Source: Paenibacillus sonchi
GTDB taxonomy: Bacteria > Bacillota > Bacilli > Paenibacillales > Paenibacillaceae
Reading direction: 5' to 3'
Length of the DNA: 64,000 nucleotides
Assembly (NCBI RefSeq): GCF_016772475.1
Contig: NZ_CP068595.1
Location: forward strand, 4,340,001-4,404,000
Positions 31,047-51,133 of the stretch are shown in pieces. Every line of letters starts with the position of its first letter. Positions within the stretch are counted from its first letter, which is position 1. A program made the position numbers and the translations under genes. Below the pieces are notes generated by a model, which saw only the letters and a program-made list of their open reading frames with translations, made no database searches and had not been told where the DNA came from.

Positions 31047-31160
31047 TTGTTTGCTGGCTGGATTAGTCAAAAACACGCTGTCGTTTGGGTCGTCAGTCAA
31101 TATCGGCGCGATAAACGAACAGGCGTGGTACAGAAGAGAAAGGAGGGGGCCATATCGTGA
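31047..31160 (+). CDS. 37-residue peptide, coupled to the pilin-like gene
   Basis: TTG start 7 bases after GAAGGAGGTG (31031-31040). The peptide begins FAGWISQKHAVVWVVSQYRR and ends with a basic tail. Its stop overlaps the GTG start of the next gene (GTGA). It may be a leader peptide that couples translation, or a small membrane peptide. No homologue was recognised. Confidence 0.5.
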   Translation: MFAGWISQKHAVVWVVSQYRRDKRTGVVQKRKEGAIS

Positions 31161-31555
31161 GGTTGAGGTTAAAGCGCAGTGGAATCATGCTGTCACTGGT
31201 GTTGTTTGCCATACTGGGTCTAAGCTTGACCCTACAGAGTGCACACGCTGATTCGATTAAGGACAAGATTGTGAGCAGCCAAGGGAAAGACAATGTGTCC
31301 GGGCTGGAAAAACAAGTGGATGATTCTACTCAAAAGGTCATATCGTCGGCACGCAAAATTTTTGTGACGCTGACGGTGGTGTTTGGCATTTGGCTGGGCA
31401 TTTGCTATTTTAGAGCAGGCTTTTCACCAGATTCACTCAGGGAGACGAAAGGCCGAATTATGTTCTTTGTGGTCTTTCTCATTCTCTCATTCTGGACAGA
31501 ATCTATTCTAGGGATGATTTTCAATTTTCTTGGTATTGATCTAGGTAAGCTGTAA
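31157..31555 (+). CDS. VirB2/TrbC-like pilin subunit candidate
   Basis: 132 residues, GTG start. A signal peptide ends near SAHADS (about 30). A short polar segment follows, then two hydrophobic helices (about 68-88 and 99-124) joined by a short basic loop, the layout of VirB2/TrbC T4SS subunits. Its location just before VirB3- and VirB4-like genes supports the call. The sequence itself gives no close family match. Confidence 0.6.
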   Translation: MRLRLKRSGIMLSLVLFAILGLSLTLQSAHADSIKDKIVSSQGKDNVSGLEKQVDDSTQKVISSARKIFVTLTVVFGIWLGICYFRAGFSPDSLRETKGRIMFFVVFLILSFWTESILGMIFNFLGIDLGKL

Positions 31556-31573
31556 CTTATGTGAGGTGAGAAC

Positions 31574-31924
31574 ATGTGGGGACAATATCATCCGGTTCCG
31601 TACCAGAGCAAGATTAAGGAAACCTTTCTGCGAATCTTTGGCGTAGCGTTAAGCCTGGATCAGACATTGTGGTGGGCGGCGGGGGCTTTTTTATCATATC
31701 GCTTTGCCCAGCTTGTACCTCCTATCGGCCATGACTGGCTGTACTCGCGGTTGCATCAATTGATTCCTTTTGCGCTCTGTCTGTATTTGTGTTATGCAAA
31801 ACATCCGAAGACGGGCCTGCCGATTTGGCGGTATTACCGTCTTCTGATTGCCCTGCGGTTCCGTCAGCGATGTTATTATTACCGAAAGTACCGGACACCA
31901 GTTTGGGATGAGGGGAAGCGATGA
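31574..31924 (+). CDS. VirB3/PrgI-like T4SS membrane protein
   Basis: 116 residues. VPYQSKIKETFLRIFGVALSLDQTLWW precedes two hydrophobic helices (about 30-48 and 60-75), and the C-terminal tail is basic. Size and position before VirB4 match VirB3/PrgI/TcpE-class proteins. The end overlaps the next gene by 4 bases (ATGA). Confidence 0.65.
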   Translation: MWGQYHPVPYQSKIKETFLRIFGVALSLDQTLWWAAGAFLSYRFAQLVPPIGHDWLYSRLHQLIPFALCLYLCYAKHPKTGLPIWRYYRLLIALRFRQRCYYYRKYRTPVWDEGKR

Positions 31925-32712
31925 AGGGTTTGATATTCCTGTTGCTACTGTTCGTCGCTGTTTGGTGGTTACGGTCAAGACGAAAGACAAGCAGTATACA
32001 AGAACTGCTTTTTAAGGATGTGGATGTCAGCATGGACGGTCTTGTGCAGAATGGAGATTCGTTTGAAATGGTGCTTGAAGTTCAGCCTGCCAATCTCGAA
32101 AATGCCTCAAGGGAAGAGAACAGAGCGGTATGGCTGAACTTTTTGGCGCTCGTGAACACGATAGGCATTCCATACACACTGGTCATGCAGTCCCAACTCT
32201 TTGAAATGAGGGACTACACTTCATATTACCGCGATCAGCCAGATAAGCTGAACTTGCCGGAAAAGCTCAAGCAGAGCGGCAGTGAGGTTGCGGACTATTT
32301 GGAGCAGTCCACGGAAGAAGGGCGAATCCGCCACTACAAAGGGTATGTCATTCTTCGGTACAGCGCATCGTCCACCGCTCAACCAGGCCTGAAGACCGGG
32401 AATGGAACGGTAGATGGTTGGCTTGGCCGGGCTGTTCCTGCCAAGGACCGCATGACGGCTGCTGAAAAAGCGGATTTGGCCGAGCAGATGCTGGAGGAAG
32501 CCGCTGAAATGATCTTCAGCTTCTGTGAACAGGCCAATATGCAATATCAGCGGCTGGATAAGGCGGGAGTATGGAATTACACCTATCAGACGTTGCAGCG
32601 CGATTTATCGCCTCATGCACGGATGATGGATGCTATTGAAGCAGGTGCATTCCAGCCAGAAAAACGCTCGTTAAACGCCAAATGGAAAGGAGGCGCGACA
32701 GAGCATGTTTAA
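31921..32712 (+). CDS. VirB4 N-terminal-domain-like protein (stand-alone)
   Basis: 263 residues. One N-terminal transmembrane helix (about 3-19) is followed by LLFKDVDVSMDGLVQNGDSFEMVLEVQPANLEN, which resembles the beta-rich start of VirB4/TraC-type ATPases. It has no Walker motifs. It lies immediately before the VirB4 ATPase gene and overlaps it by 8 bases, so it may be a split-off membrane-proximal subunit. This reading is an inference from pattern and context. Confidence 0.55.
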   Translation: MKGLIFLLLLFVAVWWLRSRRKTSSIQELLFKDVDVSMDGLVQNGDSFEMVLEVQPANLENASREENRAVWLNFLALVNTIGIPYTLVMQSQLFEMRDYTSYYRDQPDKLNLPEKLKQSGSEVADYLEQSTEEGRIRHYKGYVILRYSASSTAQPGLKTGNGTVDGWLGRAVPAKDRMTAAEKADLAEQMLEEAAEMIFSFCEQANMQYQRLDKAGVWNYTYQTLQRDLSPHARMMDAIEAGAFQPEKRSLNAKWKGGATEHV

Positions 32713-34666
32713 GCATAGGAGATCGACACCGAAAGAAGTGGTGCAGCCCGCATCTTACGAAGGCAAGGCGCAAGGCGTAGATTTTGCTGCGCCGTCGATC
32801 ATGAATGAAGTGATTCCTGGTCAAGTTGTCGGGAGTGGGACCAAAGCAACCGATTACGCTGTGGAAGTGGGAGGAACGATGATCCCCTCCCGGTTCTACC
32901 GCTCATTCTTTGCTGAAATAGCTTCAGGCAATACGTGGTCAGGAATGCTGGATTCCTTGCTCATTGGTGAGTATGGCAACGGGGATGTGGATGTAGCGAT
33001 TCATATCATGCCATCCAGCAACGATAGGGAGCTAAATGAGATTGGTCGCCGTATTGCTGGACTCTATTCCGATTTAGTCGAGGAAAAAGACGTTCGTAAG
33101 ATTGATTCCATGCGGGATGAAATCGCTGATTTAAAAGACAGACAAAAGCGGATTCGATTGAACATTGAGAAAAGCTTCCGGGTTTGTATTCAGGTTATTG
33201 CCAGTTCTACCGAATGGAAGTCCGTCATGCAGCTATGCCGCTTGCTGGTCCAGCGCTTTGCCGGGAAGTCAATCTTCCTCCGTGCGGCGGATGGTCAGCA
33301 GCTCGCGGCCTTGAAATCTGTGTTGCCGACTTGTTCCCCGGAGATTATGAAAGAGCATTTCTTGTCGCTCGAAAGCTCTAACGTAGCTGATTTATTCCCA
33401 TTCATCGGTGGTGGACTCAGCCACCGCAGCGGCATTATTATCGGTAAAGACCGTTTGGGTCGTCCGGTGTGGCTTGATAACTGGCACCCGGAGTTGACTA
33501 ATTATCATATGTGTATTATTGGTCGGTCTGGCGCGGGCAAGACGTATGCGGTGATGTTGGTTATTCACCGTTCGGCGCATATTGGCAGGAGGGTAGGCAT
33601 CATCGACTGGAAGGGCGAGTATGGGGATTTCTTGAGTATGATTGGCTGCCCATCAATGGAGCTGCATGAAAAGTCCAAGCATCGGATTAATCCTTATGAT
33701 GTGGACATTACAGAACTAGCAGATGGGTATCGCTACATTGACCTTGAGGAAGCTTCTAACTCTGTTCAGGCGCTGGCGTTTAAGATGATATCTGTTTATG
33801 ACAGAACTGCACTGACCGGAGAAGTGAAGGTATTCATCGGTCATGCTATACGGGAGCAGTATCAGGAAGCTGGTATTAGCCATGAGGTTGAAAGTCTGTT
33901 TGAAGACACGCCTACGCAGGGAGAGCAAGGACAATTTCGGGTTGGTAGACAGCGGAAGGTTATGCCGGAACTGGTTGGGTTATACCAGCGTATGGCGGCA
34001 AGCAGTCAAGAGGCGGTTCGAAAAGCCGCCGACATGTTAAAGCCGTTTACTCGTCTCGGAAATATGCCTTCTTATGCGATCTTTGATGAGCCATCTACTG
34101 TGGAACTGAAGCATGCACCTGTGTTCGGATTTGCGATTAATCGGCTGGACCCGGAAATTATGCGACCCATCGGCTTATTTGTTGCCGAACGCTGGATGAT
34201 GGAATGCTGGGCCAAAAAGTTCCCGGAGATCCAAAAGCAGTTGGTGATCGAAGAATCACAGAACATCTTTTTGGATGAAGACTTTGGCGCGATTTGGGCG
34301 GAGAGTGCTTATCGGGAAGGTCGTGCAACCAATACCGGTGTCGTATCTGTCACACAAGGGCTTGAAGTATACACGCGCTCTCAAGCAGGTATGGCTGCAA
34401 TCAAAAATAGTCCAGTCAAACTGATTGGTATCCAGGAAACGCTCGATATTGATGCGGTACGCGGAAAACTGGCGTTGACGGAGGGTGAGGCGGACTATCT
34501 GGTCTATCAGGCCCGCAAAGGTGATCTGGTGGTAAAAGTAGATAATCAATCCACAATAGTCCATGTCGATGCTTCGCCGCTGGAAAACATGATGTTTACC
34601 AGTGATCCGAATGACCCGGCGTATCAGGAACGAAAGCGGCGAATGCGAGAGGCGGCTGTGGGATGA
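32705..34666 (+). CDS. virB4: VirB4-family T4SS ATPase
   Basis: 653 residues. The CagE/TrbE/VirB4-type N-terminal half (about 50-230) leads to a RecA-like ATPase with Walker A IGRSGAGKTYAVM at about 272-284, and Walker B in KQLVIEESQNIF. GVVSVTQGLEVYTRSQAG is typical of VirB4/TraE C-termini. VirB4 powers assembly and transport of the conjugation channel. A coiled-coil region (about 120-170) is present. It overlaps the next gene by ATGA. Confidence 0.9.
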   Translation: MFKHRRSTPKEVVQPASYEGKAQGVDFAAPSIMNEVIPGQVVGSGTKATDYAVEVGGTMIPSRFYRSFFAEIASGNTWSGMLDSLLIGEYGNGDVDVAIHIMPSSNDRELNEIGRRIAGLYSDLVEEKDVRKIDSMRDEIADLKDRQKRIRLNIEKSFRVCIQVIASSTEWKSVMQLCRLLVQRFAGKSIFLRAADGQQLAALKSVLPTCSPEIMKEHFLSLESSNVADLFPFIGGGLSHRSGIIIGKDRLGRPVWLDNWHPELTNYHMCIIGRSGAGKTYAVMLVIHRSAHIGRRVGIIDWKGEYGDFLSMIGCPSMELHEKSKHRINPYDVDITELADGYRYIDLEEASNSVQALAFKMISVYDRTALTGEVKVFIGHAIREQYQEAGISHEVESLFEDTPTQGEQGQFRVGRQRKVMPELVGLYQRMAASSQEAVRKAADMLKPFTRLGNMPSYAIFDEPSTVELKHAPVFGFAINRLDPEIMRPIGLFVAERWMMECWAKKFPEIQKQLVIEESQNIFLDEDFGAIWAESAYREGRATNTGVVSVTQGLEVYTRSQAGMAAIKNSPVKLIGIQETLDIDAVRGKLALTEGEADYLVYQARKGDLVVKVDNQSTIVHVDASPLENMMFTSDPNDPAYQERKRRMREAAVG

Positions 34667-36674
34667 GCAAGGTGACGCGCTTTGCTTTTGTTCTCCTGCT
34701 TTCTCTCCTTCTGGTTGTCCAGGTATCGCCTGTTTTTGCTGCTGGTTCAACACCCAGCCCAAGCAATCAAGGGAATCAGGGTGTGATTGGGAAGCAGATG
34801 CAAAAGTATTATGAGGATGACGAACACAAGCCCGGCCTAATGGAACGGACGATAGCAGAGCCGATTATTTCGGTTTCCAATTTTCTTCTGAAGTTCTTTG
34901 GAGCAAAGGATGTAGTCGTTCTGGTATTCGGCATAGACCCCAGTGCTGACAATTCTTCGGATGTGAGAGACGGGCTATATCTAGGTGTTTTTACCGAAGG
35001 TATGATGAACGCCATTGACGCGCTATACAGTAGCTTTGAGCGCTTTATGCCGTTTCCCTTCATTCTGGCCGTCATGCTGATTGCAGGTCTGCTGCTGTTC
35101 CAAGGAATGAGTGCAGACGGACGTTCAAAGGCAAAGGACTATATGTTGGCCTTTTTGGTCGGTTTACTGTCCATCCGTTTCGGTTATTATCTCTGGAGCT
35201 TCGTGGCTTATGTCACTCAGAAGTTTACGAGCCTGATCTGGGCTACGATGCTGGATCACGGTATAAAACCGGATTTGTTTTTAAACATGATTTGGGGCAG
35301 CGGGACGGGATACGATGATATGGTCAAGTATCGCGGATTCGTGGTGGCCCTACTGGTTCTGCTAGCAGCAATCATGGCGGCGTTGCTCAATTATCAGTAC
35401 ACAATGCGCATAATTAACCTCATGGTGTTAGTATCCACCTTCGTGATTTCAGCCATACTGACGATCTTTCCAAAGTATAGGCAATCCTTGCAAATGTGGT
35501 GGAACGAATTTATTTCGCAAATGCTCTTGCCCTGTGCTCATGCACTGGCACTGGGGCTTTTTTTCTTGCTGCTTTATTATGGCAGCGACGATGTATCCAA
35601 TTGGGTGATCGTCGCCTACTTATTTGGCTTTTCTTCCATTCAAGCGCTCGTCTACCGCCTGCTTGGTGCTGAAGACAGCGGTAAGGCTTCTATAGGCAAA
35701 ATGATGGGTTTTGGTACGATGATGGCCCTTGGGCGAATGTTTAAACCTAATGGTGGAAAGGGGAAAAAGTCATCCAAGAGCGGAGGAAATGAAGCTCAAG
35801 AAATGCTGGAGGGGGGAGTACAGCTTCGGCAGAGGGAAGCTCAGGAAACTTGGCCCCCGTACCTGCGATCAGTCAGCCCAAGCAGCGTAACTGGAAACAG
35901 AGTGCCGGACAAATGGGAGGCAAAGCGGCAGGGTATGCCCTTCATTATGGGAGCAGAGCAGCCGGAGCCGTTGCCGGAACCTCCATTGGACTTATGGCTG
36001 GCAATCCCGCTTACGGTGCGCTGATTGGTGCTAAGGCAGGGGGAGCGCTAGGTAAAGGAGCCGAAGGACTTGTAAAAGGGGGGATGTGGCTAGGAAATAA
36101 AGCAGTAGGTGGGTTTCAAAGTAATAAGGCTGCATCAGCAATAGATGGTCCAGAAGAAACAAGGTCTGAGGAAATCGGAGGGGACAGGGGTACACCACCT
36201 GTTGAGTTGTTGCAGTGGGAAGCAAACAGAGGAAGTCGATCCGATGTTCAGCAGTCCTCAAATCCTGTACCGGGAGCGACAAGTTCAACGGGAACTGTTG
36301 GCAGAGTAACTGGAGTTGGTTCATCTAGCAGCGGAGCGGGCCAGTCATCACCAAAGACGGGGACAAAGCCTGCTAGTTCCGGGGGTGTTGTAAATAGCGG
36401 AATCATGATCAATGGTGGCAAAGTTAGATCGAATAGCATTTCCGTTTCAAATAACCAATCCGGTACCAATAACGGCTCCTCGGGTGGAGATGTAAAAGCA
36501 AATTCAATCCGGGTAGATGGAAACACATCTGAAGCAGGTGTGAAAATCACGGGCGGCCATGTACAAGCGGAACACATCTCTCCGAATACCGACATCCGTC
36601 AAGACACAGGCGAAGGTCAATCAGAACAGCCCCGATCTACTCCCAGCGGTAGACATTACAACTATGACTTGTGA
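34663..36674 (+). CDS. VirB6/TrbL-like polytopic membrane protein, frameshifted as read
   Basis: The frame from 34663 encodes a signal-like start, about seven transmembrane helices (residues 120-350) and a Lys/Gly-rich tail, then goes out of frame. Adding one G to the six-G run 35811-35816 joins it to the frame ending at 36674, restoring about 670 residues. Next come LAPVPAISQPKQRNWKQSAG, Gly/Ala-rich hydrophobic segments (GTSIGLMAGNPAYGALIGAK), and a Ser/Asn/Gly-rich C-terminus with repeats such as GGKVRSNSISVSNN. VirB6/TrbL proteins form part of the inner-membrane channel. Confidence 0.72.
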
Positions 36675-36686
36675 ACGGAGGGTCGT

Positions 36687-38414
36687 ATGGAGCAGGCATG
36701 GCAAATGGCTAAACGTCTTGGTAAAAAGCTCGGGAAAAAGCTGCTTAAATTTATACTGGTTAAAACTGCACCCGTTACGCTACCCCTTCTGGGCATTTTG
36801 CTTCTGATGTTTTTAGCATATGTGCTAATCTTTGAAATGCCTAAACAGGCGATTGCCGATACCTGGGACAATACCACAGATCGGGTTGCCAGTTGGTTTT
36901 ATGGTACATCTGAAAAGCAGCAGGACGACATTTTTGAGCAGTACCAAGCGCTCGCCGAAAGATGGAAGGAAGGACTTACAGCCGATCAGCAGCTTCAGGT
37001 CGAGCCATATGCATTCAATTGGGAGTGGCTGGCGGCGGTAGACCGAGCACTAAATGATCCGTCTTTCTTGGAAACCTATGGTGGGACAAAAACGAAAGAA
37101 CTGACGTTGCACCCGGAGCAAACCTTTAAAGAAGTTCGGCCCCGGTTTACGTGGGTGACAAAAGAAAAGGTCACGACCCAACAAGTGGTGGTCGAGGTGG
37201 AAGGAAATCCAAACTCCCCGATGACTGGACCGCCCAGCTATGAGGTGAGGACGATTCAAACATCCGTTCCAGTGAAGTTGCTAGAACGGGCCGAAACGAT
37301 TTACGGAACTTATGACTATTCGTATAAAAATGAGGTCAGCACAAGCACCACGCCTTCCGCAACCGGACCGCTCTCGACCAAGGTTGTTGAGCCGCGGCTG
37401 GAGCGTGTGGAAACCGTGGAGGATAACTGGAAACCCCTGCGACATATCCTGAAGCAGCATGGAGTTACCCGAGCAAGTGACCAGGATTTTTTGCTGGAAT
37501 ATTGGCTGTCGTTTCTATCCAACGATGACGGCAGTGACAATCCCATGACAGACTGGACACCGGTGAACGGGCAGCTTATATGGCCGACTGAGGGGAGGGA
37601 CATTACCTCTACGTTTGGGGTGCGGATTCATCCCATTACTGGTGTGAAAAAAATGCATAATGGAATTGACATCGGTGTGCCTACGGGTACGCCTGTTTTT
37701 GCTGCGCGTGAAGGAACGGTCATTTTCGCCGGAGCGATGGGTACAGCCGGGCAAGCCGTTATCATCAAGCATGACAACGGTCTGGAAACGCGGTATTACC
37801 ACCTGAATCGGGTAGATGTTTTGAACGGACAAGTGGTGACGGCCAGAGAGCAGGTTGCTGAGTCAGGCAATAGCGGTAGCTCCACTGGGCCACATTTGCA
37901 TTTCGAAGTGCGGCTTAGTGGCACTCCTGTTAATCCATTGCTCTATTTCGGTTACAGCGAATCTGCATCTTCCATTTTGACTTACCGGGCGCTAAATATA
38001 TCAGTTCTTATTCAATGGCTGAATGACCGAGACTCCGCGTTGGCTAATGCTGATGTGCTTAGGCTGATTGACCAAGCGGCGAAAAGTCAAAACATAGACC
38101 CGTACTTGCTCATCGCCATTACTGGAGCCGAGCAGAGTTTTGTTCCACGCTCGAATCCCAGCGCGGAAAAAATTATCCGCAATCCGTGGAATGTCTTCGG
38201 AAGCTGGAAGGTGGGGCGCGGCTCTATGCTAACGACTGGTGAAGCGGCCCGCATCGCGGCCAAAACGATAGTGAAGCTGTCGAAGGAGAAGCCGTCCACT
38301 GTGGATGCCATTGAGTGGCTTTCCAGCCGCAATAATCCAAATGGGTATTATGCCGCTGATCCGAATTGGTGGCGAAATGTCTCCAGCATTTATCAGCAAT
38401 TTTCTAACTTTTAA
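36687..38414 (+). CDS. Bifunctional cell-wall hydrolase (M23 peptidase + lysozyme-like), VirB1-type
   Basis: 575 residues. A basic N-terminus and one transmembrane helix (about 28-52) precede a linker. An M23 zinc endopeptidase domain follows at about 290-420, with zinc ligands in KMHNGIDIGVPTG (about 322-334) and GPHLHFEV (about 401-408). A C-terminal lysozyme-like/SLT region carries LLIAITGAEQSFV (catalytic Glu) and PWNVFGSW. Gram-positive T4SS use such two-domain hydrolases to open peptidoglycan. GGAGGG precedes the ATG. Confidence 0.88.
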   Translation: MEQAWQMAKRLGKKLGKKLLKFILVKTAPVTLPLLGILLLMFLAYVLIFEMPKQAIADTWDNTTDRVASWFYGTSEKQQDDIFEQYQALAERWKEGLTADQQLQVEPYAFNWEWLAAVDRALNDPSFLETYGGTKTKELTLHPEQTFKEVRPRFTWVTKEKVTTQQVVVEVEGNPNSPMTGPPSYEVRTIQTSVPVKLLERAETIYGTYDYSYKNEVSTSTTPSATGPLSTKVVEPRLERVETVEDNWKPLRHILKQHGVTRASDQDFLLEYWLSFLSNDDGSDNPMTDWTPVNGQLIWPTEGRDITSTFGVRIHPITGVKKMHNGIDIGVPTGTPVFAAREGTVIFAGAMGTAGQAVIIKHDNGLETRYYHLNRVDVLNGQVVTAREQVAESGNSGSSTGPHLHFEVRLSGTPVNPLLYFGYSESASSILTYRALNISVLIQWLNDRDSALANADVLRLIDQAAKSQNIDPYLLIAITGAEQSFVPRSNPSAEKIIRNPWNVFGSWKVGRGSMLTTGEAARIAAKTIVKLSKEKPSTVDAIEWLSSRNNPNGYYAADPNWWRNVSSIYQQFSNF

Positions 38415-38429
38415 GTGAGGAGGGAACAA

Positions 38430-38876
38430 ATGAATGTTTATCGTTCAGTGACAACGCTAATTGCCCTGCTGCTAATGCTCACGATGGCCCAGCCGCTGGT
38501 TGCCGCTGCTGCCAGTGCGACCGGTACGGCATCAAGTACACCGAAGCTCTCTGAGCAGATCCAGCAGCAAAGTGAGGACTTTAACCCGGATAAGCTAGGC
38601 AAGCAAATGGAGCAGAAAGCAACGGAACTCCAGGTTGTTGTGGTCGGTGGCAGCAAACTCTATATTATCCTAGCGCTTGTTGTCTTTGGGCTGTTATTGA
38701 TCGGGGGGCTGTTTTTCCGCCGTCTGCTGTCCGCTGCTTTTGTTTTCCTGGCACTTGCTTTTTTGGGATACCTGATCCTCAATTATTGGCCGCAAATTAC
38801 AGATTTCCTTTTGTCCGTTTTAAAGTGGTTGTTTGGTAAAGGGGGAAACGCAAGTGAAACTTCATCTGGTCTTTGA
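38430..38876 (+). CDS. Small exported membrane protein (VirB2-like layout)
   Basis: 148 residues from ATG at 38430 (GAGGAGGG upstream). A cleavable signal peptide (cut near AAAASA) precedes a Gln/Lys-rich helix and two transmembrane helices near the C-terminus (about 75-95 and 97-125). The overall layout resembles the pilin-like gene at 31157. It overlaps the TadZ-like gene by 23 bases. Function unknown. Confidence 0.55.
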   Translation: MNVYRSVTTLIALLLMLTMAQPLVAAAASATGTASSTPKLSEQIQQQSEDFNPDKLGKQMEQKATELQVVVVGGSKLYIILALVVFGLLLIGGLFFRRLLSAAFVFLALAFLGYLILNYWPQITDFLLSVLKWLFGKGGNASETSSGL

Positions 38877-40113
38877 AGCTTCCCTTCTTCCAGCATTGAA
38901 AGAGGCTTTGCTGGAGCGTGAATATGTTGTCAGCGGAACGGATGTAACGTTGGAACAATTTCAAATTGCAGTGGAGGCGGGGAGTATTGAAGCCGATACC
39001 GCGCTAGTGGACGGGGCGCTAGGCGTGAATCGCTCAGAGAGTGTGAAGCTCCTCAAGGGGATTCGAGTCGCCGCGCCTGATCTGCGCTTGATTGTCATTC
39101 TATCTTCCGTTGATACGCAGTGGGTCAAAGAGTTGGGAATGCTCGGCATTTACGACGTGTATATGACAGAACAGTTCCAATTGGCAGATATTGAACATTG
39201 GCTATATTCCAAGAAGACATTGGCGGACGTACCGGAGTTTGGAGAGCAGGGTGTTAAACGCCCTGCTCCACCAACCCCGGGCACTGAAGTTCAATTTCAG
39301 CAGAAACCGGAGTCCAAGGACAGCTTTAAGCACCATGTCCAGCGGTTAGGAAACTGGATGGCTCAGAAGAGGGAAGATGCTCGCAACAGGCGGACGGAAG
39401 CAGCGCTAAAGAAGTTGGAAGAAGCAGAGCACCAAGGTGACGAGGAGCTGCAGGAGCTGACAGAGGCGCTTGAAGCAGAGCAACCTCCTGCAGCCAGCTT
39501 ACGGTTTGACTTTCCTAAGCGGGCGATGGCTGTGGGTGTAATCGGATTGAAACCGCGCAGCGGTACCACACATACGGTGCTTGCGCTCGCTTCTGCTTTT
39601 GCCAAAGAGGGGATGAAGGTAGCGGCTATCGAATGCCAACTGCCGGACAAATCATCTGATTTCGCCAGCCTTGCATACCCCTTCACAGAACAAGAGGGAA
39701 TCACATTATACCCGAATGTGTCGCCAGAACGGATTCCTGCTCTGTTGGCCTTACCTTTTGACCTCATTGTGCTGGATCTTGGCAGTGCGGTAGAGGAGCG
39801 AGCCAGTCCTGCAATGTCAGAGTGGCTGCGTTGCGATCTCCAATTGGCCGTGCTTTCCGCAGCTCCGTGGGATGTAAGGGATGCCTTGAAAAACCAAACC
39901 GTGTCCTTGTTAACGAACATCCGGGGGTATGTGCTTGTCAATTATGCCGACCCGGATATGTTCAAGGAAACAAAGGAACTGCTGGAGCCTTTCGGTGTTC
40001 CGGTCATGAATGTTCCGTATGCCCCCAATCCATTTGAGGGGAAATCCGATTGGGTTGCACCGCTGATGCCTGCAAAAGCGCCGAAAAAGAGACGCTTTGC
40101 AAAAACACTGTAG
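38854..40113 (+). CDS. TadZ/CpaE-like protein with degenerate P-loop
   Basis: About 419 residues from GTG at 38854 (GGGGG upstream; TTG at 38833 is also open). A receiver-like N-terminal domain (about 1-125, LRLIVILSSVDTQW) is followed by a Lys/Glu-rich coiled linker. A MinD/ParA-like domain then begins AVGVIGLKPRSGTTHTVLAL. The usual KGGxGKT lysine is replaced, so ATP binding may be weak, as in some TadZ proteins. TadZ places the Tad pilus at a cell site. It lies before a second similar gene and CpaF. Confidence 0.75.
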   Translation: MKLHLVFEASLLPALKEALLEREYVVSGTDVTLEQFQIAVEAGSIEADTALVDGALGVNRSESVKLLKGIRVAAPDLRLIVILSSVDTQWVKELGMLGIYDVYMTEQFQLADIEHWLYSKKTLADVPEFGEQGVKRPAPPTPGTEVQFQQKPESKDSFKHHVQRLGNWMAQKREDARNRRTEAALKKLEEAEHQGDEELQELTEALEAEQPPAASLRFDFPKRAMAVGVIGLKPRSGTTHTVLALASAFAKEGMKVAAIECQLPDKSSDFASLAYPFTEQEGITLYPNVSPERIPALLALPFDLIVLDLGSAVEERASPAMSEWLRCDLQLAVLSAAPWDVRDALKNQTVSLLTNIRGYVLVNYADPDMFKETKELLEPFGVPVMNVPYAPNPFEGKSDWVAPLMPAKAPKKRRFAKTL

Positions 40114-42200: not shown

Positions 42201-42212
42201 GGGGGCATGGGA

Positions 42213-43097: not shown

Positions 43098-43987
43098 TTG
43101 CTTGTTGCAAATGGCATTTTGTTTGTCGGAGTTTTGATGTTGACTGTAGGGCTGCTGCATGTGCTATTACCCGGATTTGTCCGTGAAAAACGGTATGCGA
43201 CTCAAGCGCTTCTACTATCCAAAAGCGCAGCCGAACGCCAGCGGATGCAGTTTGATCCGATAACGTTGGCAATGGCGGATCGCTTACCTCGGTTGGAGCA
43301 AAAGCTGGGTTGGGGGATGATTGGCAAGCTGCGCCGGATGTATATGGCGCTGGACAAGGAACATTCGTTTGAGATGGAAGTTGCGGGCATTTTGGTCAAG
43401 TCTGTCATTGGCGCGCTTCCTCTTGCGGTATTACCGTTTATCTTGGGTGCGCCTGCGCTTTTAGTTGCGATTCCTGCGGGAATCGTTCTTTTTTTGCAGC
43501 TCAACTGAACGAAATCCCCAAAGCGTATAAACGCCGCCAGACAGAGATCACGAAAGACTTGCCGCAGCTCATTTCTAAGATGATGATTGCTCTGGAAACC
43601 GGGAAGTCATTTATCACGACGATTCAGCGATTGGAGGAAACGAGCGGGCCGCGTACACGAAAAATGCTTTCCCGTCTGAATGCCAATTTACGCATTATGA
43701 GCGTGGGTGAAGCAATGGATCTTTTCGCCAAGGAAACGGGTGTACCGGTGATGCGGGAATTCGCTGCGGCCGTCAAGATTGGTAACAATGCCGGATATGA
43801 AGAAGCCAAATCTTACTTTGAGAGCATCAAGGACGAGTTGAGACAACTCCGCTTGGTGTCCTTAAAGGAGGTGACCCGGAATCAACCCCAAAAGGTGAAG
43901 GGGCTGTACGTGTTAGTGGCTGTACATGCGTTTATTGCGGTGATTATGGCTTTTGTAGCAGTGATGTCGGAAATGCAATCCATTTAA
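43098..43987 (+). CDS. tadC: TadC-like pilus assembly protein, frameshifted as read
   Basis: The frame from TTG at 43098 (AAGGGGAGGG upstream) encodes two hydrophobic spans, then leaves frame at a seven-T run (43489-43495). An eighth T restores LNEIPKAYKRRQTEITKDLP and joins the T2SSF domain (LISKMMIALETGKSFITTIQ) ending at 43987, about 296 residues in total. The pair TadB-TadC forms the membrane platform. Two C-terminal hydrophobic segments are expected. Confidence 0.82.
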
Positions 43988-44016
43988 ATTTTCTAAAACA
44001 TAGGAGGATGTTATTT

Positions 44017-44274
44017 ATGCAAACATGGACAATGGGTAAAGAAAAAGTTGGAGTACGGGTTCGTCGTTTCAAGGAAAAAGCACAAGATAAGCTGACTGAA
44101 CTGACGGTCAAGGCGCTTATGCCGATTCGCAACCAAGAGGGGGCAACCATCATCGAAATCCTCGGCTATGCGCTGGTTGCAGTACTGGGTATTGTCCTAA
44201 TTTGGGGGCTTATCAAGGGCTGGTTGCCTAAACTGTTTGCCAACATTACAGGCAAAATTGATGGTCTCTCTTAA
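44017..44274 (+). CDS. flp: Flp-like type IVb prepilin
   Basis: 85 residues. A basic leader of about 40 residues ends in NQEG, followed by ATIIEILGYALVAVLGIVL. This is a class IVb prepilin site with Glu at mature position 5 and a hydrophobic helix. The leader is long for Flp. It is a likely major pilin, followed at once by a terminator that would favour its expression over later genes. TAGGAGG precedes the ATG at 44017. Confidence 0.75.
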   Translation: MQTWTMGKEKVGVRVRRFKEKAQDKLTELTVKALMPIRNQEGATIIEILGYALVAVLGIVLIWGLIKGWLPKLFANITGKIDGLS

Positions 44275-44313: not shown

Positions 44314-44333
44314 TACCAGAGAGGAGGAGAGCC

Positions 44334-44753
44334 ATGCTTCGAAAAATGCGCTCTGTTCTGAGTAACAACCGAGGGGAAGGACATGCGATTGCCATTTTAT
44401 TCTTTTTATTGATCGCCTCCATCATGCTCTATTGCGCGGTTGATGTGTACGGGTATATGACCCAAAAGCAGAAGCTGACCATTGCTGCTAATGAGTTAAT
44501 GGAGATTATCAAGTCTGAGAATGGTTATGATGCCACGAATCGCAGCCAGTTTGATTATCTGGCTCTCAGCCAAGGGCTGAATCCCGCTGCAATTTCGGTT
44601 GAGGCGACCCCCAAGTTAGTTCAGCGTGGAGCCACGATTGAGCTGAATGTCAGCATGAATTATAGGTTCATCGGGCTAAAGCCATTGGGTCAAGAAATCA
44701 CGATACCGATCAAAGTCCATACAAGCGGGCTGGCACATACGTATTTACGTTAG
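44334..44753 (+). CDS. TadE/DUF4320-like pseudopilin
   Basis: 139 residues. A basic leader with NNRGEGHAIAILFFLLIASIM gives a single N-terminal transmembrane helix. The exported domain is mostly beta. This layout matches TadE and DUF4320 proteins encoded after Flp pilins. GAGGAGG precedes the ATG. Confidence 0.65.
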   Translation: MLRKMRSVLSNNRGEGHAIAILFFLLIASIMLYCAVDVYGYMTQKQKLTIAANELMEIIKSENGYDATNRSQFDYLALSQGLNPAAISVEATPKLVQRGATIELNVSMNYRFIGLKPLGQEITIPIKVHTSGLAHTYLR

Positions 44754-44763
44754 GAGGGATAAA

Positions 44764-45189
44764 ATGCTACGGAATATCGCTCTTATTTTGTTATCCTCTT
44801 TTGCCCTGCTTTTGTTCCGGGATGTCGTTGTAACCTACGGTACGTACCTGAAAGTTGAAAAAAGTATAGAGCAGGCACTGGATGCAGCGATTGTCGCCGG
44901 TACGAAAGAGATAGATAACCAACGGGGAGGTCTGAAGGTCGATGTAGATGCGGCCAGAGAAGCCTTGCGTGTGTCGTTAATCCAAAATTTGAATTTGAAT
45001 TCGGAGATGGCGAACGACTTGTTGCATGGAAGTACCCTTGACGTGTACTTGAAGTACAGCGGTGAGATACCACGCATTGAAGCACAGTTTGATACACGTA
45101 TCGATCTGATTGCCGGGAAGTGGCTCGGGTTATCGGTATGGCCGTTGACGGTCAAAAAGCATACACCTTACTTATCCGAATTTATTTGA
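44764..45189 (+). CDS. TadE/TadG-like pseudopilin
   Basis: 141 residues with one N-terminal hydrophobic helix (about 4-28). An exported alpha/beta domain follows (KSIEQALDAAIVAGTKEIDN, then a C-terminal beta part). Position between the DUF4320-like gene and cpaB supports a minor pilin role. AGGAGG precedes the ATG. Confidence 0.6.
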   Translation: MLRNIALILLSSFALLLFRDVVVTYGTYLKVEKSIEQALDAAIVAGTKEIDNQRGGLKVDVDAAREALRVSLIQNLNLNSEMANDLLHGSTLDVYLKYSGEIPRIEAQFDTRIDLIAGKWLGLSVWPLTVKKHTPYLSEFI

Positions 45190-45202
45190 GGGAGTGAAGC
45201 AT

Positions 45203-45904
45203 TTGAAACGATTATGGAACCAAACGACGCGTCGCTTGGTTATTTTGTTTTGTTCAATATTGCTTGCCGGAGCGGGTGTCTTTGTTCAGAACCGGAATGT
45301 CTCAAACCGCACCGAAATGATATACGTTGCGGTAGCCAGCGAGAACGTAAAGCCGAATCATCCGGTGAAATGGACGTTTCGGAATGTGGTGAAAAGTGAA
45401 TCTCCAGCGGATGCCATCACAGACGCTAAGGAACTGGAGGAACAGAACTGGGTAGCAAACGAGGTGGGGATACCGCAAAATACACCGATAGCTAAATCTA
45501 TGCTGGTAAAAGCAGAGGAAAGCAAGTATGGAGCCAGCGCTGCATTGAAAAAGGGAAGTATGTTTGTCGGGGTTACAACTGACCAAGTACGCAGCGCAGG
45601 GGACTATATTAAGCCCGGTGTGAAGGTGGATGCGTTCGTATATATCAAGGTTGGAAATGAGCGGGGTGAGCAGACATCGAAACTGATTACACCGGAAACA
45701 GACCCATTGCTGAAAAATCTATTGGTCAAAGACCGCCAGAACCAAAATGGGTATGAGCCGAAAAGTGAAGAAAACCAGAATCCGATTCCGGCGATTGCGA
45801 TTATTGAAACGGATAATCCGTTAGTCGCTGCTGCGTTGATTAAGTATCAAGAGGAAGGCAAGGTGTATCTGGTGCCGACCGGTACGCAAGGTAACGAGCA
45901 ATGA
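45203..45904 (+). CDS. CpaB/RcpC-like pilus assembly protein (SAF domain)
   Basis: About 233 residues; TTG at 45203 is favoured by spacing to GAGGGAG, GTG at 45194 being the alternative. One N-terminal transmembrane helix (about 10-28) leads to a SAF-like domain (YVAVASENVKPNHPVKW, then KKGSMFVGVTTDQVRSAGDYIKPG). CpaB/RcpC belongs to Tad systems. It overlaps the next gene by ATGA. Confidence 0.8.
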   Translation: MKRLWNQTTRRLVILFCSILLAGAGVFVQNRNVSNRTEMIYVAVASENVKPNHPVKWTFRNVVKSESPADAITDAKELEEQNWVANEVGIPQNTPIAKSMLVKAEESKYGASAALKKGSMFVGVTTDQVRSAGDYIKPGVKVDAFVYIKVGNERGEQTSKLITPETDPLLKNLLVKDRQNQNGYEPKSEENQNPIPAIAIIETDNPLVAAALIKYQEEGKVYLVPTGTQGNEQ

Positions 45905-46533
45905 AGCGTTGGGGGGCTCTAGGGCTGATGTGTCTTTTGTTGAGTAGCCTACAGCCGATTACTGGTGTGGAAGCTCAGACAGTCACAGAAACGGCCTATT
46001 TTAAATCAGGCGATGTCATTTCTAATGTGTATAGAAATGTGTATGAGTCGAAATTGGCAGTGTCATTGTTGTCCGCGTCATCGGTATCGCTGGATCTGCA
46101 ACAACCACAAGAACTCACCATGCGATTTCAGCTTGAAATAAATCAGGAACATACAGCGGGATGGCAGTATACCGCCCAACTCAGCAATTTTACAATCAAG
46201 CAGCAAAGAGGCAAAGAGATAGTGCGAGCGGAGATTATGGCTGCTTCCGTTTCTTTTTTGGTTCAAAATGTGGCTTCAGAGGATGCGCATACCCTGCCTG
46301 TTGGCTACGCTGGAACGTTTGCTTCTGGCGATAGCCAAACGGTACTTCAGGCCGAAGAAGGGGAAGGAAAAGGACGATTTGAGGCAGATTTGCTTTTGAA
46401 GGTCGCCCTTCCTCCATCAGTTCAGATTGTGTCCGTAGAGGGTGGAAGTGATCTTAAGGCTGGGCAGCAAATCGGGCTTCTATCTGGGGAGTATCGGGCA
46501 AGCCTGGTCAGTACGCTGGTTGCAGGATTATAG
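45901..46533 (+). CDS. WxL-like surface protein
   Basis: 210 residues. A signal peptide (cut near GVEA) is followed by a single beta-rich domain with GWQYTAQLSNFTI (first WxL-type motif) and a C-terminal YRASLVSTLVAGL that ends the protein, as in WxL domains. WxL proteins attach non-covalently to peptidoglycan and form complexes with DUF916 proteins, one of which is encoded next. The second motif is degenerate. Confidence 0.65.
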   Translation: MKRWGALGLMCLLLSSLQPITGVEAQTVTETAYFKSGDVISNVYRNVYESKLAVSLLSASSVSLDLQQPQELTMRFQLEINQEHTAGWQYTAQLSNFTIKQQRGKEIVRAEIMAASVSFLVQNVASEDAHTLPVGYAGTFASGDSQTVLQAEEGEGKGRFEADLLLKVALPPSVQIVSVEGGSDLKAGQQIGLLSGEYRASLVSTLVAGL

Positions 46534-46551
46534 ATAGAAATGAGGTTTTGT

Positions 46552-47652
46552 ATGGAAATAAGAAAGGTTGGAGCGCTGTTATTTATGTTATGTATGAGTT
46601 GTTTTGGGCTGGCGGGCATCGCCAGTGCGGATAGCTCTTTTACGATCTCACCGATTAAAGCGGTTGAAGAAGGTCGGGGCTATTATAAGGACACGGTACA
46701 GCCCGGACAGGTAAGGGAATATACCTTCTATCTTCGTAATTTGAAAAATGAGCCGCTACCACTCACCGTGTATCCCGCTGATGCTAGGCCAGCCCAAAAC
46801 GGCGGAAGGAGCTTTGGCGAAAAAGAACAGCCGCAGACACTGGTTGGCTCTTGGCTATCGCCACAGAAGGTACAAAACGTGACCCTTGCTCCCAAAGAAG
46901 AACGACAATTCAGCTTCAGGGTAAAGGTTCCGAAGTCGCTTACTCCAGGTCAGTATGTTGGGGTTGTAGCTGCGGAGGAACGTATCCCGGCCAGCCCTGC
47001 CAAATCCCTGTCCCAGCAAGCAAGTGTTGCGATTGATGTGGTAAACCGCGCTGGAGTTCAAATCGTATTAGAGTACAAACCGAAGCAGTCCAAGCATACG
47101 ATGAGTATCGACGCATTCCGGCATGACTACATTCCTGCTGGAAACTCACGATTGACGATTGATTTGTCCAACAGCGGCACGATTCTTGAAAAGCCTAAAG
47201 GAAAGATTATCGTCCGAGATAGTAAAAATCAGGTCATGTACCAGAGCGATTATGCCGCTGATTCCATCTATGCTGGAACAACAGCAAACATGGTCTATGT
47301 CGTTAATGAGAAGCTGTTGCTGCCGGATACGTATTCCGTCTATTACGAAGCAACATTTTCCGGTAAGACGATTAACCGTACGTTTAACTTCACGGTGACA
47401 AGAGAGAATTCACAGCAGTCCAAGCAGGCACTTATAGATTCCGGCAAGATTGAGGTCAAACAGACATTTGAAGACTGGTTATGGCAACATAGCTGGATCA
47501 TTATTTTGGTCTTCTTCCTGTTTATTTTGATATTGATCTTAGCCGTATGGCTTTCGCTTGCATTGTCCAAGCGTAAGAAGAAAGAAGCTCAGTCGCAGGA
47601 TGACAGCACAAACCCTATACCGGTTGAACAATCAGGCGCAGGCTCCTCTTAA
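46552..47652 (+). CDS. DUF916/WxL-interacting membrane-anchored protein
   Basis: 366 residues. A signal peptide precedes an Ig-like DUF916 domain (FTISPIKAVEEGRGYYKDTV, YTFYLRNLKNEPLPLTVYP). A second domain follows the DUF3324 pattern (VNRAGVQIVLEYKPKQSKHT). A C-terminal transmembrane helix (about 318-342) and basic tail complete it. This is the WxLIP architecture that anchors WxL proteins. ATG at 46552 is preferred to 46540 because GAGG lies just before it. Confidence 0.82.
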   Translation: MEIRKVGALLFMLCMSCFGLAGIASADSSFTISPIKAVEEGRGYYKDTVQPGQVREYTFYLRNLKNEPLPLTVYPADARPAQNGGRSFGEKEQPQTLVGSWLSPQKVQNVTLAPKEERQFSFRVKVPKSLTPGQYVGVVAAEERIPASPAKSLSQQASVAIDVVNRAGVQIVLEYKPKQSKHTMSIDAFRHDYIPAGNSRLTIDLSNSGTILEKPKGKIIVRDSKNQVMYQSDYAADSIYAGTTANMVYVVNEKLLLPDTYSVYYEATFSGKTINRTFNFTVTRENSQQSKQALIDSGKIEVKQTFEDWLWQHSWIIILVFFLFILILILAVWLSLALSKRKKKEAQSQDDSTNPIPVEQSGAGSS

Positions 47653-47669
47653 GGGGTCTGCGCTTTTTT
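47636..47669 (+). terminator. Terminator overlapping the DUF916 gene stop
   Basis: GCGCAG (47636-47641) pairs with CTGCGC (47658-47663), followed by six Ts. About 70 bases then lead to the next gene, with no clear promoter. Confidence 0.75.
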
Positions 47670-47751
47670 GTATAGGTTGAGGAGGTGAGGCGGTATTTAT
47701 CAAGGTCAGGCAAATGCTACCTGACACAGACCATATCAGGAGGAATGAAGA

Positions 47752-48341
47752 ATGAAAAAAGTATGGTTAGCTTTATGTACATCCATCATGCTGCTGCTTC
47801 CATTGTCAGCAGTACACGCAGAGACGGATGAGTCGGAGGTGACGGTGACGGGTTCTGGATTACAAATGACCCAGACCCAGCCCCGGTTTTCAGACGTGAC
47901 CTTAAGCGTGAAGAACACGCAGACTACACAAGCCACAAATGACCTGTATGTCATGGATGCGCGGGTACGGCAGCCGGGTGGGGCATCACGCTGCGAGCAA
48001 CGGATTTTAAGCTGTCGCGGACGATTGGTGGTGCAGCAGTTGAATTTGTCATTCCAGCTTCGGCGGTGACGTTCACGGCTTCGTACAAAGGTGCGTTGGT
48101 CGGAACGACTATCGACTTTGCTTCTGGAAATGGTGAACTGGCAACGGGGAAGGTACTCAGCTCTGAGGATGAGCGAATTGTCGGCGTAGTTCCTTCCGAG
48201 GGTGCCGGTACGCACCGGATCGGCGTGAACTATACGCTGGCGGTGCCGAAGCTGATCCAGGGCAGCAATGGCAAGACGGTCGGTTTGTTGCAGGGAACAT
48301 ATACCTCAACATTCACCTACACCGCTACTGCAGGACTATAA
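47752..48341 (+). CDS. WxL-domain surface protein, frameshifted as read
   Basis: A signal peptide (cut near VHAE) leads to SDVTLSVKNTQTTQATNDLY. Adding one G to the three-G run 47963-47965 turns the sequence into MDARGTAAGWGITLRATDF, a classic first WxL motif. The frame then runs to 48341, ending YTSTFTYTATAGL, for about 196 residues in all. AGGAGG precedes the ATG. Confidence 0.75.
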
Positions 48342-48353
48342 GGAGGAAATGAT

Positions 48354-51133
48354 ATGATCACTAAACCAAAAGATAATCCCCCAAAAAAACTGCGCAGATG
48401 GGGGACTTTAGCACTCGCCTTTACATTGCTCATCCCTGGACTTGTTATTTCTGGGAGTACGCAAACCGTTGAGGGAGCAGCGTACACCCATATTTCAAAA
48501 GTAGGAGCCTTTGACGAGAAATCCAGGGAATTAAATATTTTCAGCTTGGATAACGGCTATAAAGTATTACAAAGACGAGGCTTTGACACGGTGGATGTTT
48601 CTCCTGGTCCATCAGAAAAATACTATAATTATTACGATAGTTATGGTAGCACTAAAATCGGTAGCGTATATTTACAATCGGGTAAACTGTACACTCAAAA
48701 AGCCGGAGAAAGTGCAGTCGAAAAACTGGATGATGTTGTCGATTTTGAAGTATTAACAAACAACGAATACTCAGATATTGCAAAATTTAGTTATTTTGCA
48801 CTCAAGAGCGATGGAACTGTTTGGGCTTGGGGGCAGGAGCAAAAGGACAGTTAGCTATTGGTGGTGCTGTCGATATGGCCATACCTACATTTGTCCTTGA
48901 CCCAACTGGGGCAGACTTAACGGGGGTAAAGAAAATTTATTCACTGTCTCCGGAGTCAATTATTTTTATAAAGGACAATGCAGTTTACATGGTAGGTTCC
49001 GGCATGGGAAAGTACACGCTGACCACACCAACTTCTAAGACTGCAGATATTACATCATACTTCCCAGCATTCACATCATCGGCTAATTTTCAGATGGCCT
49101 TTCTTAACGGTTTTAACTATAGCCGTGTAGATATGCAACCAGGCAACACTACCCTTGTGGACGCATCCTCTCGTATTTTCACTATAAATGGAGTAAATTA
49201 CTCACTTACTGACTGGAATGCATACAAGGCTCCAGGTAGCACGTCAACCGAGTTGGATAGTGCCCCCACTTTGTATAACATACCTACTGGGGTTGACATC
49301 ACTAATGTGCATCGTTACATCACTCCAGCTAAAAATCCATTTTCTGGTGCGAGATATCTACCAGTCGGATACACGACCATACAGAATGGAGATCTAAAAT
49401 ATTGGGGAACTCCATTTTCGGATTGGGCCTATGGTGGGAACACCATTCAAGCCATAAAAACAATAGCAACTGGAGTTCAATCCGTCGTTGGAGATGGTTC
49501 CGGTGCTTTTTGGTTTTTGAAGGATGGAAATGTGTATACCTTCGGGGCTAATAATGCCGGCAGAACGGGGATTGCAGGGGGTGGAGTGATTTCGGATCCT
49601 GTAAAGGTATCGGGACCAAGCGGCGAAGTAAAGAATGTAAAGCAGATCGCTTCCTATGGATTTCAGACTTATGCTCTCAAGGACAATAATGATGTAATCG
49701 CGTGGAGTGATGCTTCCTCATTCTCAACACTTAGTAAAAAGTATCTATCGCTGTTCCAGGCTCCAGATCGCTCTGGTAAATATATTGTTTATGGAATCAC
49801 CGAATCCGGTGATTTTGTAAAGTTACCGGATGGCACAGCCGTCACCGGATTTCCAAAAATATACCCCGTTGACTATGTGGCTCCCGTTGTTCTGGATACA
49901 CCTACGAGTGTGCTGTCAACGGATAAATTCAATCGGTCTGTGATTACAGTTGATTACGGCAGTTCCCCAGCAATCACCAACCGTGAATACTCCATAGATG
50001 GAGGAGCTACTTGGTTACCGTATACGGCTCCTGTAACGTTGACCTCCGCCGGTATGATATCTTTTAAGGCTCGTTCCTGCGCGGAAGGTGGAATTTATAG
50101 CAAGCTGCTTGAAATTGAGGTGAATAATGATCCAATCATTATAAAATCTGGTTTTCCGCAGATCACAGATAACGGTAACGGAAGTTTTAGTGTTGACTCT
50201 GGAACCACCCATCCTGATGCTAAGACCCAGATCAAAGTCGACAATGGAACTTGGGTTGATTACATTGGAGCGGTGACATTGCCATCTGGCAGCCATACCG
50301 TGGATGTACGGATAATCAATAAAGCAGGTGAAGAACTGGCGACCAACCAAAAGACAGTGAACGGGGCTACGCCATTTCCAACGGCCACGCCAACACCAAC
50401 AGTGGCTCCAACTCCAACTGTAGTGCCAAGCAGCACTCCTACAGCAGTACCCACATCGACAGTAGCACCAGCTACACCCACGCCGACAACTGCACCTACG
50501 GCGGGTCCAACAGCTACAACCGTTCCAACAACGGTACCGGCAACACCAGTGCCGACAGTAGATCCAAGTTGGGGCAGCCCGATTGGTTCTGAAGATGTAA
50601 CCTTTACTGTACTGGGCGGTGGTTTCAGTTCGCAGTTCAGCGGGCTATTATTGGACAATGTGACCATTAGCACGACCAACCCATATCAGCAGATTAATTC
50701 TGTAACCAACTCAGTCATTGAGGACAGCAGAGGGAGTGGTGCGGGATGGAATTATACGCTGAAGATCACGGATTTTGTGAGTGATCCAGTGGTGGACAAT
50801 AGTAATAACACGAACAATTTAGTGGTCAAAATGCCATCGAATGCCTTGAGTGTAGATGTCGCCAATTCCACTACCCTTGCGGGACAATCTGGAATGGTGA
50901 GCCAAACCGGAAATCATGTTTTTAGTGATCAGCCCGTTGTATTGGCACAGGCCAATGAGTACCAAGGTATGGGGCAGTATCAGATTGGACAAAGCTTCAC
51001 ACTTCGAGTGCCAGATAAGGTAGAGATTGTTTCTGCTGGAGAAGGCAGTTCGTATCACCCTGGAACCAAAACTGGCTTGCGAGTCGGGACGTATCGTTCA
51101 CAGTTTACGTTCACTTTGGCTTCTGGAATATAG
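48354..51133 (+). CDS. RCC1-like propeller fused to a WxL domain, frameshifted as read
   Basis: Frames 48354-48854 and 48821-51133 join if the five-G run 48829-48833 has a sixth G, giving DGTVWAWGAGAKGQLAIGG. The protein is about 926 residues: signal peptide; RCC1-type repeats (LKSDGTVWAWG..., FWFLKDGNVYTFGANN); an Ig-like segment (REYSIDGGATWLPYTAPVTL); a Pro/Thr stalk (DNA about 50370-50570); and a C-terminal WxL domain (GAGWNYTLKITDF, ending FTFTLASGI). It probably displays a propeller head from the wall, held by the WxL domain. Confidence 0.78.

Follow-up and report, generated by a model that had tools for sequence, protein, structure and literature searches.

A type IV secretion system and a Tad pilus locus encoded together on one integrative element of Paenibacillus sonchi: a probable pilus for mating-pair contact

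The window analysed here is a 64,000-nucleotide stretch of the Paenibacillus sonchi chromosome (C1:4340001-4404000 of a 7.8-Mb, three-contig genome, labelled G000 in our comparisons). Within it, on an integrative element, lies a run of 18 same-strand genes (31157 to 47652) in which the genes of a type IV secretion system (T4SS) are followed by those of a Tad pilus and of cell-surface proteins (Table 1). Junctions within the run range from -44 to +59 bp, two split genes left aside, and three 4-bp gene overlaps occur, with a fourth if the cpaF start is placed at 40839, as chosen here by eye (the longest open reading frame, ORF, begins at 40665). An earlier sequence-only reading of this DNA had described the same gene order on one strand, and the ORF order bears it out. 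As to the gene identities that it gave, Pfam supported VirB4, M23, CpaF, TadE, CpaB and DUF916, whereas TadB, Flp, WxL and TadZ were matched below the Pfam cut-offs, neither TadC piece had a Pfam hit, the VirB2 match reached only E 0.096, and VirB3 and VirB6, without a relevant match, were placed by position and conserved order.

Table 1. Genes and other features of the T4SS-Tad region and of its host element. Positions are those of the window unless a contig is given; G207 is a relative's genome.
Feature	Position	Strand	Evidence and remarks
VirB2-position small membrane protein	31157..31555	+	Pfam TrbC/VirB2 E 0.096 only; position kept in 7/7 relatives
VirB3/PrgI-position protein	31574..31924	+	No Pfam match; conserved order
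Probable detached VirB4 N-terminal part	31921..32712	+	NCBIfam VirB4_plasma, model positions 97-215, E 0.0025
VirB4 ATPase	32705..34666	+	Pfam DUF87 1.4e-10, P-loop_TraG 1.1e-6, AAA_10; PDB VirB4-like 4ag5 1.3e-14
VirB6-position membrane protein	34663..36674	+	Two frames here (34663-36024, 35850-36674); one ORF in G207
Membrane-anchored M23 peptidoglycan hydrolase	36687..38414	+	Pfam M23 8.5e-33
Small conserved membrane protein	38415..38876	+	7/7 relatives
TadZ-like protein 1	38833..40113	+	Pfam CbiA 0.0066, below cut-off; 7/7 relatives
TadZ-like protein 2	40132..40842	+	7/7 relatives; matched by plasmid CpaF query, 2.8e-39
CpaF/TadA pilus motor ATPase	40839..42200	+	Pfam T2SSE 5e-30; PDB CpaF 9.7e-28
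TadB	42207..43082	+	Pfam T2SSF 4e-5, below cut-off
TadC	43098..43987	+	Two frames here; one ORF in G207; neither piece with Pfam match
Flp-like pilin	44008..44274	+	Pfam Flp_Fap 0.027, below cut-off
TadE-like pseudopilin (DUF4320)	44334..44753	+	Pfam DUF4320 1.3e-15
TadG-position membrane protein	44764..45189	+	Conserved
CpaB/RcpC	45194..45904	+	Pfam RcpC 1.1e-6, barely above cut-off
A24 prepilin peptidase	C1:4435634-4435939		Further along the same element
WxL-like surface protein	45901..46533	+	Pfam WxL 1.4e-4, 22.3 bits vs cut-off 25
DUF916 / WxL-interacting protein	46540..47652	+	Pfam WxLIP_PGBD (PF06030) 6.4e-10, 39.6 bits vs cut-off 27.3
Second WxL-like protein	47752..48341	+	Two frames; by eye; neither piece with Pfam match
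RCC1-repeat surface protein, WxL-like C-terminus (by eye)	48354..51133	+	Pfam RCC1; two frames
Terminator-like stem-loop just 5' of T4SS genes	30989..31015	+	
Terminator-like stem-loop closing the run after DUF916	47634..47665	+	Longest stem of scan
attL, 37-bp direct repeat over sufB 3' end	20957..20993	+	
attR, second exact copy of 37-bp repeat	G000:C1:4508542-4508578		
Tyrosine integrase, start of element	21028..22269	-	Pfam Phage_integrase 1.7e-20
NusG-like protein, possible antiterminator, upstream of the gene run	24157..24945	+	Pfam NusG 2.5e-7; in 5/7 relatives' stretches
RecD2-type helicase	24945..27185	+	Pfam HHH_RecD2, AAA_30; in 7/7 relatives

A VirB4 ATPase and a coupling protein, two marks of a Gram-positive conjugative T4SS, are both encoded, the coupling protein elsewhere on the element (TraG-D_C domain, 1.6e-7) and split over two overlapping ORFs. 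The protein ahead of VirB4 is probably its detached N-terminal part; its VirB4_plasma score is far below the cut-off of the model, and its AlphaFold model (mean pLDDT 57) is too weak for domains to be named. No match to VirB8/TcpC was obtained among the T4SS-region proteins scanned by profile, and VirB6 was assigned by position alone. The M23 protein, which had been read as an M23-lysozyme hydrolase, has a predicted fold that matches M23 enzymes in an AlphaFold model of low confidence (mean pLDDT 63); neither Pfam nor that weak model, whose matches are to M23 only, bore out a lysozyme part.

The element also has its own, nearly complete Tad pilus locus, which encodes the motor ATPase TadA/CpaF, TadB and TadC (split between frames in the assembly); an A24 prepilin peptidase is encoded further along inside the element. 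The second TadZ-like protein is fused to CpaF in plasmid relatives. At the cleavage site of the pilin the Glu at +5 is present and +6 is Ile rather than the expected Tyr, a combination that fits 'Flp-like' in the sense of PMC3244431 (this and the other articles cited are used as excerpts, and what is said of them holds for those excerpts). When compared with structures in the PDB, CpaF matched CpaF at 1e-27, FlaI at 4e-25 and VirB11 at 5e-10, and at least one TadB or TadC match follows CpaF in every stretch that runs past it. The suggestion that CpaF stands in for VirB11 was not supported on these grounds, the CpaF/FlaI structures being far nearer than VirB11; judged from its sequence, CpaF is the motor of the Tad pilus and not a VirB11. 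It is likewise quite improbable that CpaF in a VirB11 role would power the T4SS of a hybrid machine with the Tad membrane proteins as part of its channel. CpaF and VirB11 do belong to one ATPase superfamily, CpaF is located in the T4SS gene run, and the protein published as VirB11 of plasmid pLS20 is nearer to CpaF (7e-25) than to VirB11 (6e-17); yet the PDB comparison groups the window's CpaF with CpaF/FlaI, and many related T4SS showed no CpaF nearby. The element moreover pairs this CpaF with TadB, TadC, a pilin-like protein and an A24 peptidase, none of which a T4SS is known to need.

Two terminator-like stem-loops, the two best of the scan, frame the block from the T4SS genes to DUF916, terminator-like matches overall being near chance (23 found vs 19.0 ± 4.9 expected). 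Given the stem after DUF916, the last two surface genes may form a separate unit. In this assembly reading frames are broken in VirB6 and TadC, in both of the last two surface genes (the second WxL-like gene and the RCC1-repeat gene) and in the coupling protein.

The host element spans 147,585 bp between 37-bp direct att repeats at the 3' end of sufB, each repeat consisting of the final 33 bases of sufB and 4 further bases. The marks of an integrative and conjugative element that were found are an integrase (by Pfam), flanking att repeats (by repeat search) and an empty site in relatives: in 9 of the 19 relatives whose sufB flanks were read (G761 left out), sequence like that to the right of attR stands within ~1.5 kb of sufB, and in 2 of those 9 an ABC-transporter region follows sufB at ~160-290 bp. 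A search that started from the sequence right of attR found matches in 7 other relatives; sufB was absent from the ~1.5 kb of flank in each of them. One relative, G158 (L228), has the same integrase region behind its sufB and also a Tad and WxL-like locus of the other T4SS type. PF03432, the one relaxase family searched for, has no match anywhere in the genome, and the element carries a weak Replic_Relax-type protein (E 8e-4, below cut-off); with no recognised relaxase, the class given to it here goes no further than an integrative element that bears conjugation genes. A single-strand-binding protein was recognised on it by eye, and the NusG-like protein is one that we take to be of the LoaP type.

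Two observations concern this mobility region on the element and in relatives. Proteins named 'Replication-relaxation' recur (L012:16303-17241 and plasmid records L039, L100, L101, L103 and L182); PLSDB classes the plasmids carrying them as non-mobilizable, and they are perhaps an unrecognised relaxase or a helper. A TubZ-like GTPase is encoded further along the element, close to the coupling protein, at L012:14068-15321, with similar ones, by eye, in the same place in G035, G094 and G150.

A scan of public genomes returned seven loci, all in Paenibacillus and all (7/7) with the order VirB2-VirB3-x-VirB4-VirB6-M23-x-TadZ-CpaF-TadB-TadC, Flp being matched in six, so that the T4SS-Tad order first read in the window alone is kept in relatives. 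Within the family Paenibacillaceae, VirB4 was matched at E 1e-40 or better in 12 of 394 genomes, 8 at 72-100% identity (these overlap the seven named loci) and 4 at 38-39%. Tad genes lie downstream of VirB4 in all 8 and in P. hunanensis (9/9 close T4SS), and in the more distant set G150 has a Tad block, G194 has CpaB before its contig ends, the contig of G145 stops ~11 kb past VirB4 and G135 shows no Tad over 28 kb downstream. The reverse search, with CpaF at 1e-60 or better, gave 22 places in 21 of the 394 genomes. A clear T4SS is present in 13 of these 22 stretches, 7 of the window type and 6 with a different set (M23 and an FtsK-like ATPase, with a DUF87 ATPase also in 5), while among the remaining places 3 have only an FtsK-like or coupling-type ATPase, 1 (G222) has neither in 13 kb and 5 stretches end too soon.

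T4SS and Tad modules have been exchanged between loci. Compared with the plasmid locus of P. amylolyticus pY5S7-2, the window's CpaF is 48% identical and its VirB4 15.5%, whereas in P. hunanensis VirB4 is 67% identical and CpaF 43%. The arrangement varies as well: the Tad block is upstream, not downstream, of the T4SS on plasmids of P. thiaminolyticus, P. polymyxa SC2 and Geobacillus subterraneus, it lies on the same strand as the T4SS and ~20-25 kb apart on two Brevibacillus plasmids, and in P. peoriae HS311 a TcpE-type conjugation cluster lies ~14-24 kb away from it on the opposite strand. Around the T4SS of P. amylolyticus pY5S7-1 there is no Tad gene within 18 kb. In G674 (L114-L117) a Tad block stands on either side of the T4SS, the upstream block being fragmented in one of two copies.

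The surface genes behave differently from the T4SS-Tad pair. The W-x-L motif is missing from the WxL-like protein (45901-46533) and from the four homologues compared, W-x-Y being seen by eye instead, and a search with the protein found one relative besides itself; the DUF916 protein is the single PF06030 match in the whole genome, and the score of its second domain, PF11797, falls short of the cut-off. In 9 of the 22 CpaF places sampled, CpaB is followed by WxL-like and DUF916 genes, 7 of these 9 loci having the other T4SS type or a T4SS out of reach, and in the other 13 a large fibronectin-type protein or copper-amine-oxidase/CARDB proteins follow CpaB. Since other surface proteins take their place in 13 of 22, the surface module is exchangeable between loci, and the WxL/DUF916 pair was not supported as an obligatory part of the machine that the sequence-only reading had proposed. 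A copper-amine-oxidase-N1 and CARDB protein pair (L012:8629-11487) was noted downstream of the Tad block in many such elements.

A wider alignment search with VirB4 found at least 56 places in 49 of 398 Bacilli genomes, these counts being lower bounds as at most 3 candidates were scored per genome. Fifty of the 56 were read with flanks, contigs permitting, of up to 20 kb on each side (32 places) or up to 10 kb (18 places), and Tad genes lie within ~30 kb of at least 21 of the 45 scorable places, 5 being unscorable. In this scoring, whose profiles were partly built from loci that they score, G731 (two loci) and G595 count as having Tad (CpaF 22-26 kb off), as does pBlat, G414 counts as unknown, and G458 counts as lacking Tad though its genome has two CpaF matches of unseen position; rescoring by CpaF distance covered only places among the matches listed in the CpaF survey. 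Chance was assessed by label shuffles and a rough estimate alone, the latter giving fewer than 1 of 45 stretches with a Tad locus (40 kb of ~4 Mb, under half of the genomes having CpaF).

Trees of VirB4 and CpaF were quick searches without bootstrap, in which long-branch rows are of unsure place. In the VirB4 tree (67 rows, the pPamy-type rows being dropped as too distant) the window's clade comprises 21 rows with support 100, and Tad is present in 18 of its 19 scorable members (G135 counted as the miss, 2 rows unscorable). The Tad label is more clustered on this tree than in shuffles (0/500 as low, near-copies helping), and several separate groups carry it. Most members of this wide T4SS clade have retained the pairing, which is found also with unrelated T4SS, and the view that T4SS and Tad belong together on mobile elements is supported. 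Among the best 17 CpaF places, 15 sit 5-26 kb from a VirB4 place. In the CpaF tree (several near-copies and G049 left out, 'T4SS-linked' following the stretches read), 17 CpaF without a nearby VirB4, selected from the next-best matches out of 170 genomes with CpaF matches, occupy one side of a branch (SH-aLRT 87) with no T4SS-linked row among them; the window chromosome's own unlinked CpaF (C1:3382582) is one of these 17.

These surveys bear on whether the Tad pilus could be mere cargo with no role in transfer, for instance in adhesion or biofilm formation, to the benefit of the host or of the element's persistence. We regard this as unlikely. CpaF places without a nearby T4SS are indeed common in Bacilli, many related T4SS showed no Tad, and the authors who described appendages in Cutibacterium acnes left their link to conjugation open (PMC5696575). 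However, the T4SS-linked CpaF stand apart from the 17 unlinked ones sampled, the window's clade has Tad in nearly all scorable T4SS, P. hunanensis and G035 (VirB4 67-74%) have a different Tad rather than none (CpaF 43% or distantly alike), and the Tad block lies inside the same closely spaced gene run as the T4SS.

Plasmid pLS20 of Bacillus subtilis provides a diverged case. Its record annotates the gene at 9839-11047 as tadA, which we take to be the gene published as virB11 (PMC11730352), and the TadA-like product gave the PDB matches cited above. Two membrane proteins encoded next are matched by the TadC profile (1.8e-5 and 1.9e-5, against 0.34 for a VirB6 control), the TadB profile giving 0.12 with the first of them. 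Of the proteins that come after these, one is DUF4320-like (E 0.0058, below cut-off) and another, of 47 aa, is Flp-like. No convincing CpaB was found among the 15 proteins tried. Like the window, pLS20 thus has a T4SS with TadA-like ATPase, TadC-like, DUF4320-like and Flp-like proteins on the same plasmid; unlike it, pLS20 is highly diverged and has a known contact factor, the adhesin TIE (PMC8092201). A link between pLS20 and Tad is not mentioned in the titles or abstract openings of the matching literature. In our estimate it is evenly balanced whether Tad-type pili are the mating-pair organelle of a large share of Gram-positive conjugation systems, assembled repeatedly with unrelated T4SS, with the pLS20 'VirB11' being the motor of a reduced Tad pilus.

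For the window itself, we think that the region probably serves mating-pair formation on an integrative element that is itself probably conjugative, the pilus providing donor-recipient contact. The M23 enzyme would open the wall for a channel through which VirB4 and the coupling protein would drive DNA, CpaF would extend and retract a thin type IVc pilus by which a recipient is located and pulled closer, and the DUF916/WxL-like pair and its substitutes in relatives would be exchangeable surface anchors or adhesins. The role in contact is proposed by analogy with the type IV pilus of IncI plasmids and of PAPI-1. Several findings weigh on the other side. The PF03432 relaxase is missing genome-wide, the Replic_Relax protein being the only and weak candidate; G135, a member of the window's clade, has no Tad in the 10 kb ahead of VirB4 or the 28 kb beyond it, and G222 has a Tad block with no T4SS gene within 13 kb upstream. 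Among the scorable VirB4 places in Bacilli, 24 of 45 have no Tad in the stretch read (10-20 kb a side, some possibly false negatives), and 170 of 398 genomes have some CpaF match, places without a nearby T4SS being common. In the copy studied here, moreover, the assembly shows broken frames in VirB6, TadC and the coupling-protein gene, and this copy may be defective; short homopolymer runs close to these three breaks make sequencing error a possible cause.

The lack of a recognised relaxase (PF03432) would also suit a T4SS that exports proteins rather than DNA, such as the RHS-type protein encoded downstream with its predicted ADP-ribosyltransferase end, the pilus then serving contact with a target cell. 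We hold this to be very improbable, as the element has an integrase, att sites, a coupling protein, RecD2 and the by-eye single-strand-binding protein, and the close relatives read have other genes downstream of the T4SS-Tad run.

Other genes were noted around the region and on the same chromosome. The RHS-repeat protein (window 54499-60111) has a C-terminal Tox-ART-HYD1 (ADP-ribosyltransferase) domain, is followed by further RHS pieces and is cargo of the element, and an F5/8 type C (discoidin) protein lies on the minus strand at window 51190-53071, apparently in three ORFs of which only the longest was scanned. Two more clusters of an A24 peptidase, CpaF and a VirB4-like ATPase occur at C1:8527-21512 and C1:7346968-7359078 (CpaF 2e-72 and 9e-72), perhaps two copies of one smaller element.

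The way in which Gram-positive donors capture recipients is called largely elusive in the literature (PMC11730352). According to a 2025 review, conjugative pili are not encoded by Gram-positive systems, and VirB11 homologues are universally lacking in them (PMC12857230); neither 'tad' nor 'cpaf' occurs in its main text. If Tad-type pili were the mating-pair organelle of a large share of these systems, the view that they encode no pili would be overturned. The pairing recurs in many related bacteria in which DNA transfer is held to need no pili. It suggests that a pilus for recipient contact is encoded by many elements of Bacilli, an idea that can be tested by gene removal with pLS20 in the laboratory species B. 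subtilis. Searches that required all terms together found no paper joining Tad pili and conjugation or T4SS with Paenibacillus or Bacillus.

The sequence-only reading knew of no described Gram-positive system of this composition, which was too strong, as T4SS with Tad has been reported in Sulfobacillus (PMC6803676) and on Cutibacterium acnes plasmids (PMC5696575). In Sulfobacillus thermotolerans, the plasmids pL15 and pY0017 and a plasmid-like region of Kr1 are described as a conjugation backbone that, like the window, has a T4SS (VirB4, TraG-like) with CpaF/TadA and TadB/TadC homologues; unlike here, these are termed a putative T2SS, and the excerpt names no Flp, TadE, CpaB, WxL or mating pilus (PMC6803676). 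The C. acnes plasmids have a Tad locus beside VirB4, FtsK-like and TcpC-like genes, and appendages were seen on plasmid-positive cells; they differ from the window in being actinobacterial and linear, with DUF916 unmentioned in the excerpt (PMC5696575). Thaumarchaeal integrative and conjugative elements resemble the window in combining VirB4/VirD4 with TadC, FlaI, a prepilin peptidase and pilins, and differ in being archaeal (PMC6563490). IncI plasmid R64 and Pseudomonas PAPI-1 are Gram-negative, with other T4SS parts and with pili that are not called Tad in the excerpt, but like the window they encode a type IV pilus together with a DNA-transfer system, and there the pilus either raises transfer in liquid, as for IncI, or is indispensable, as for PAPI-1 (PMC12857230).

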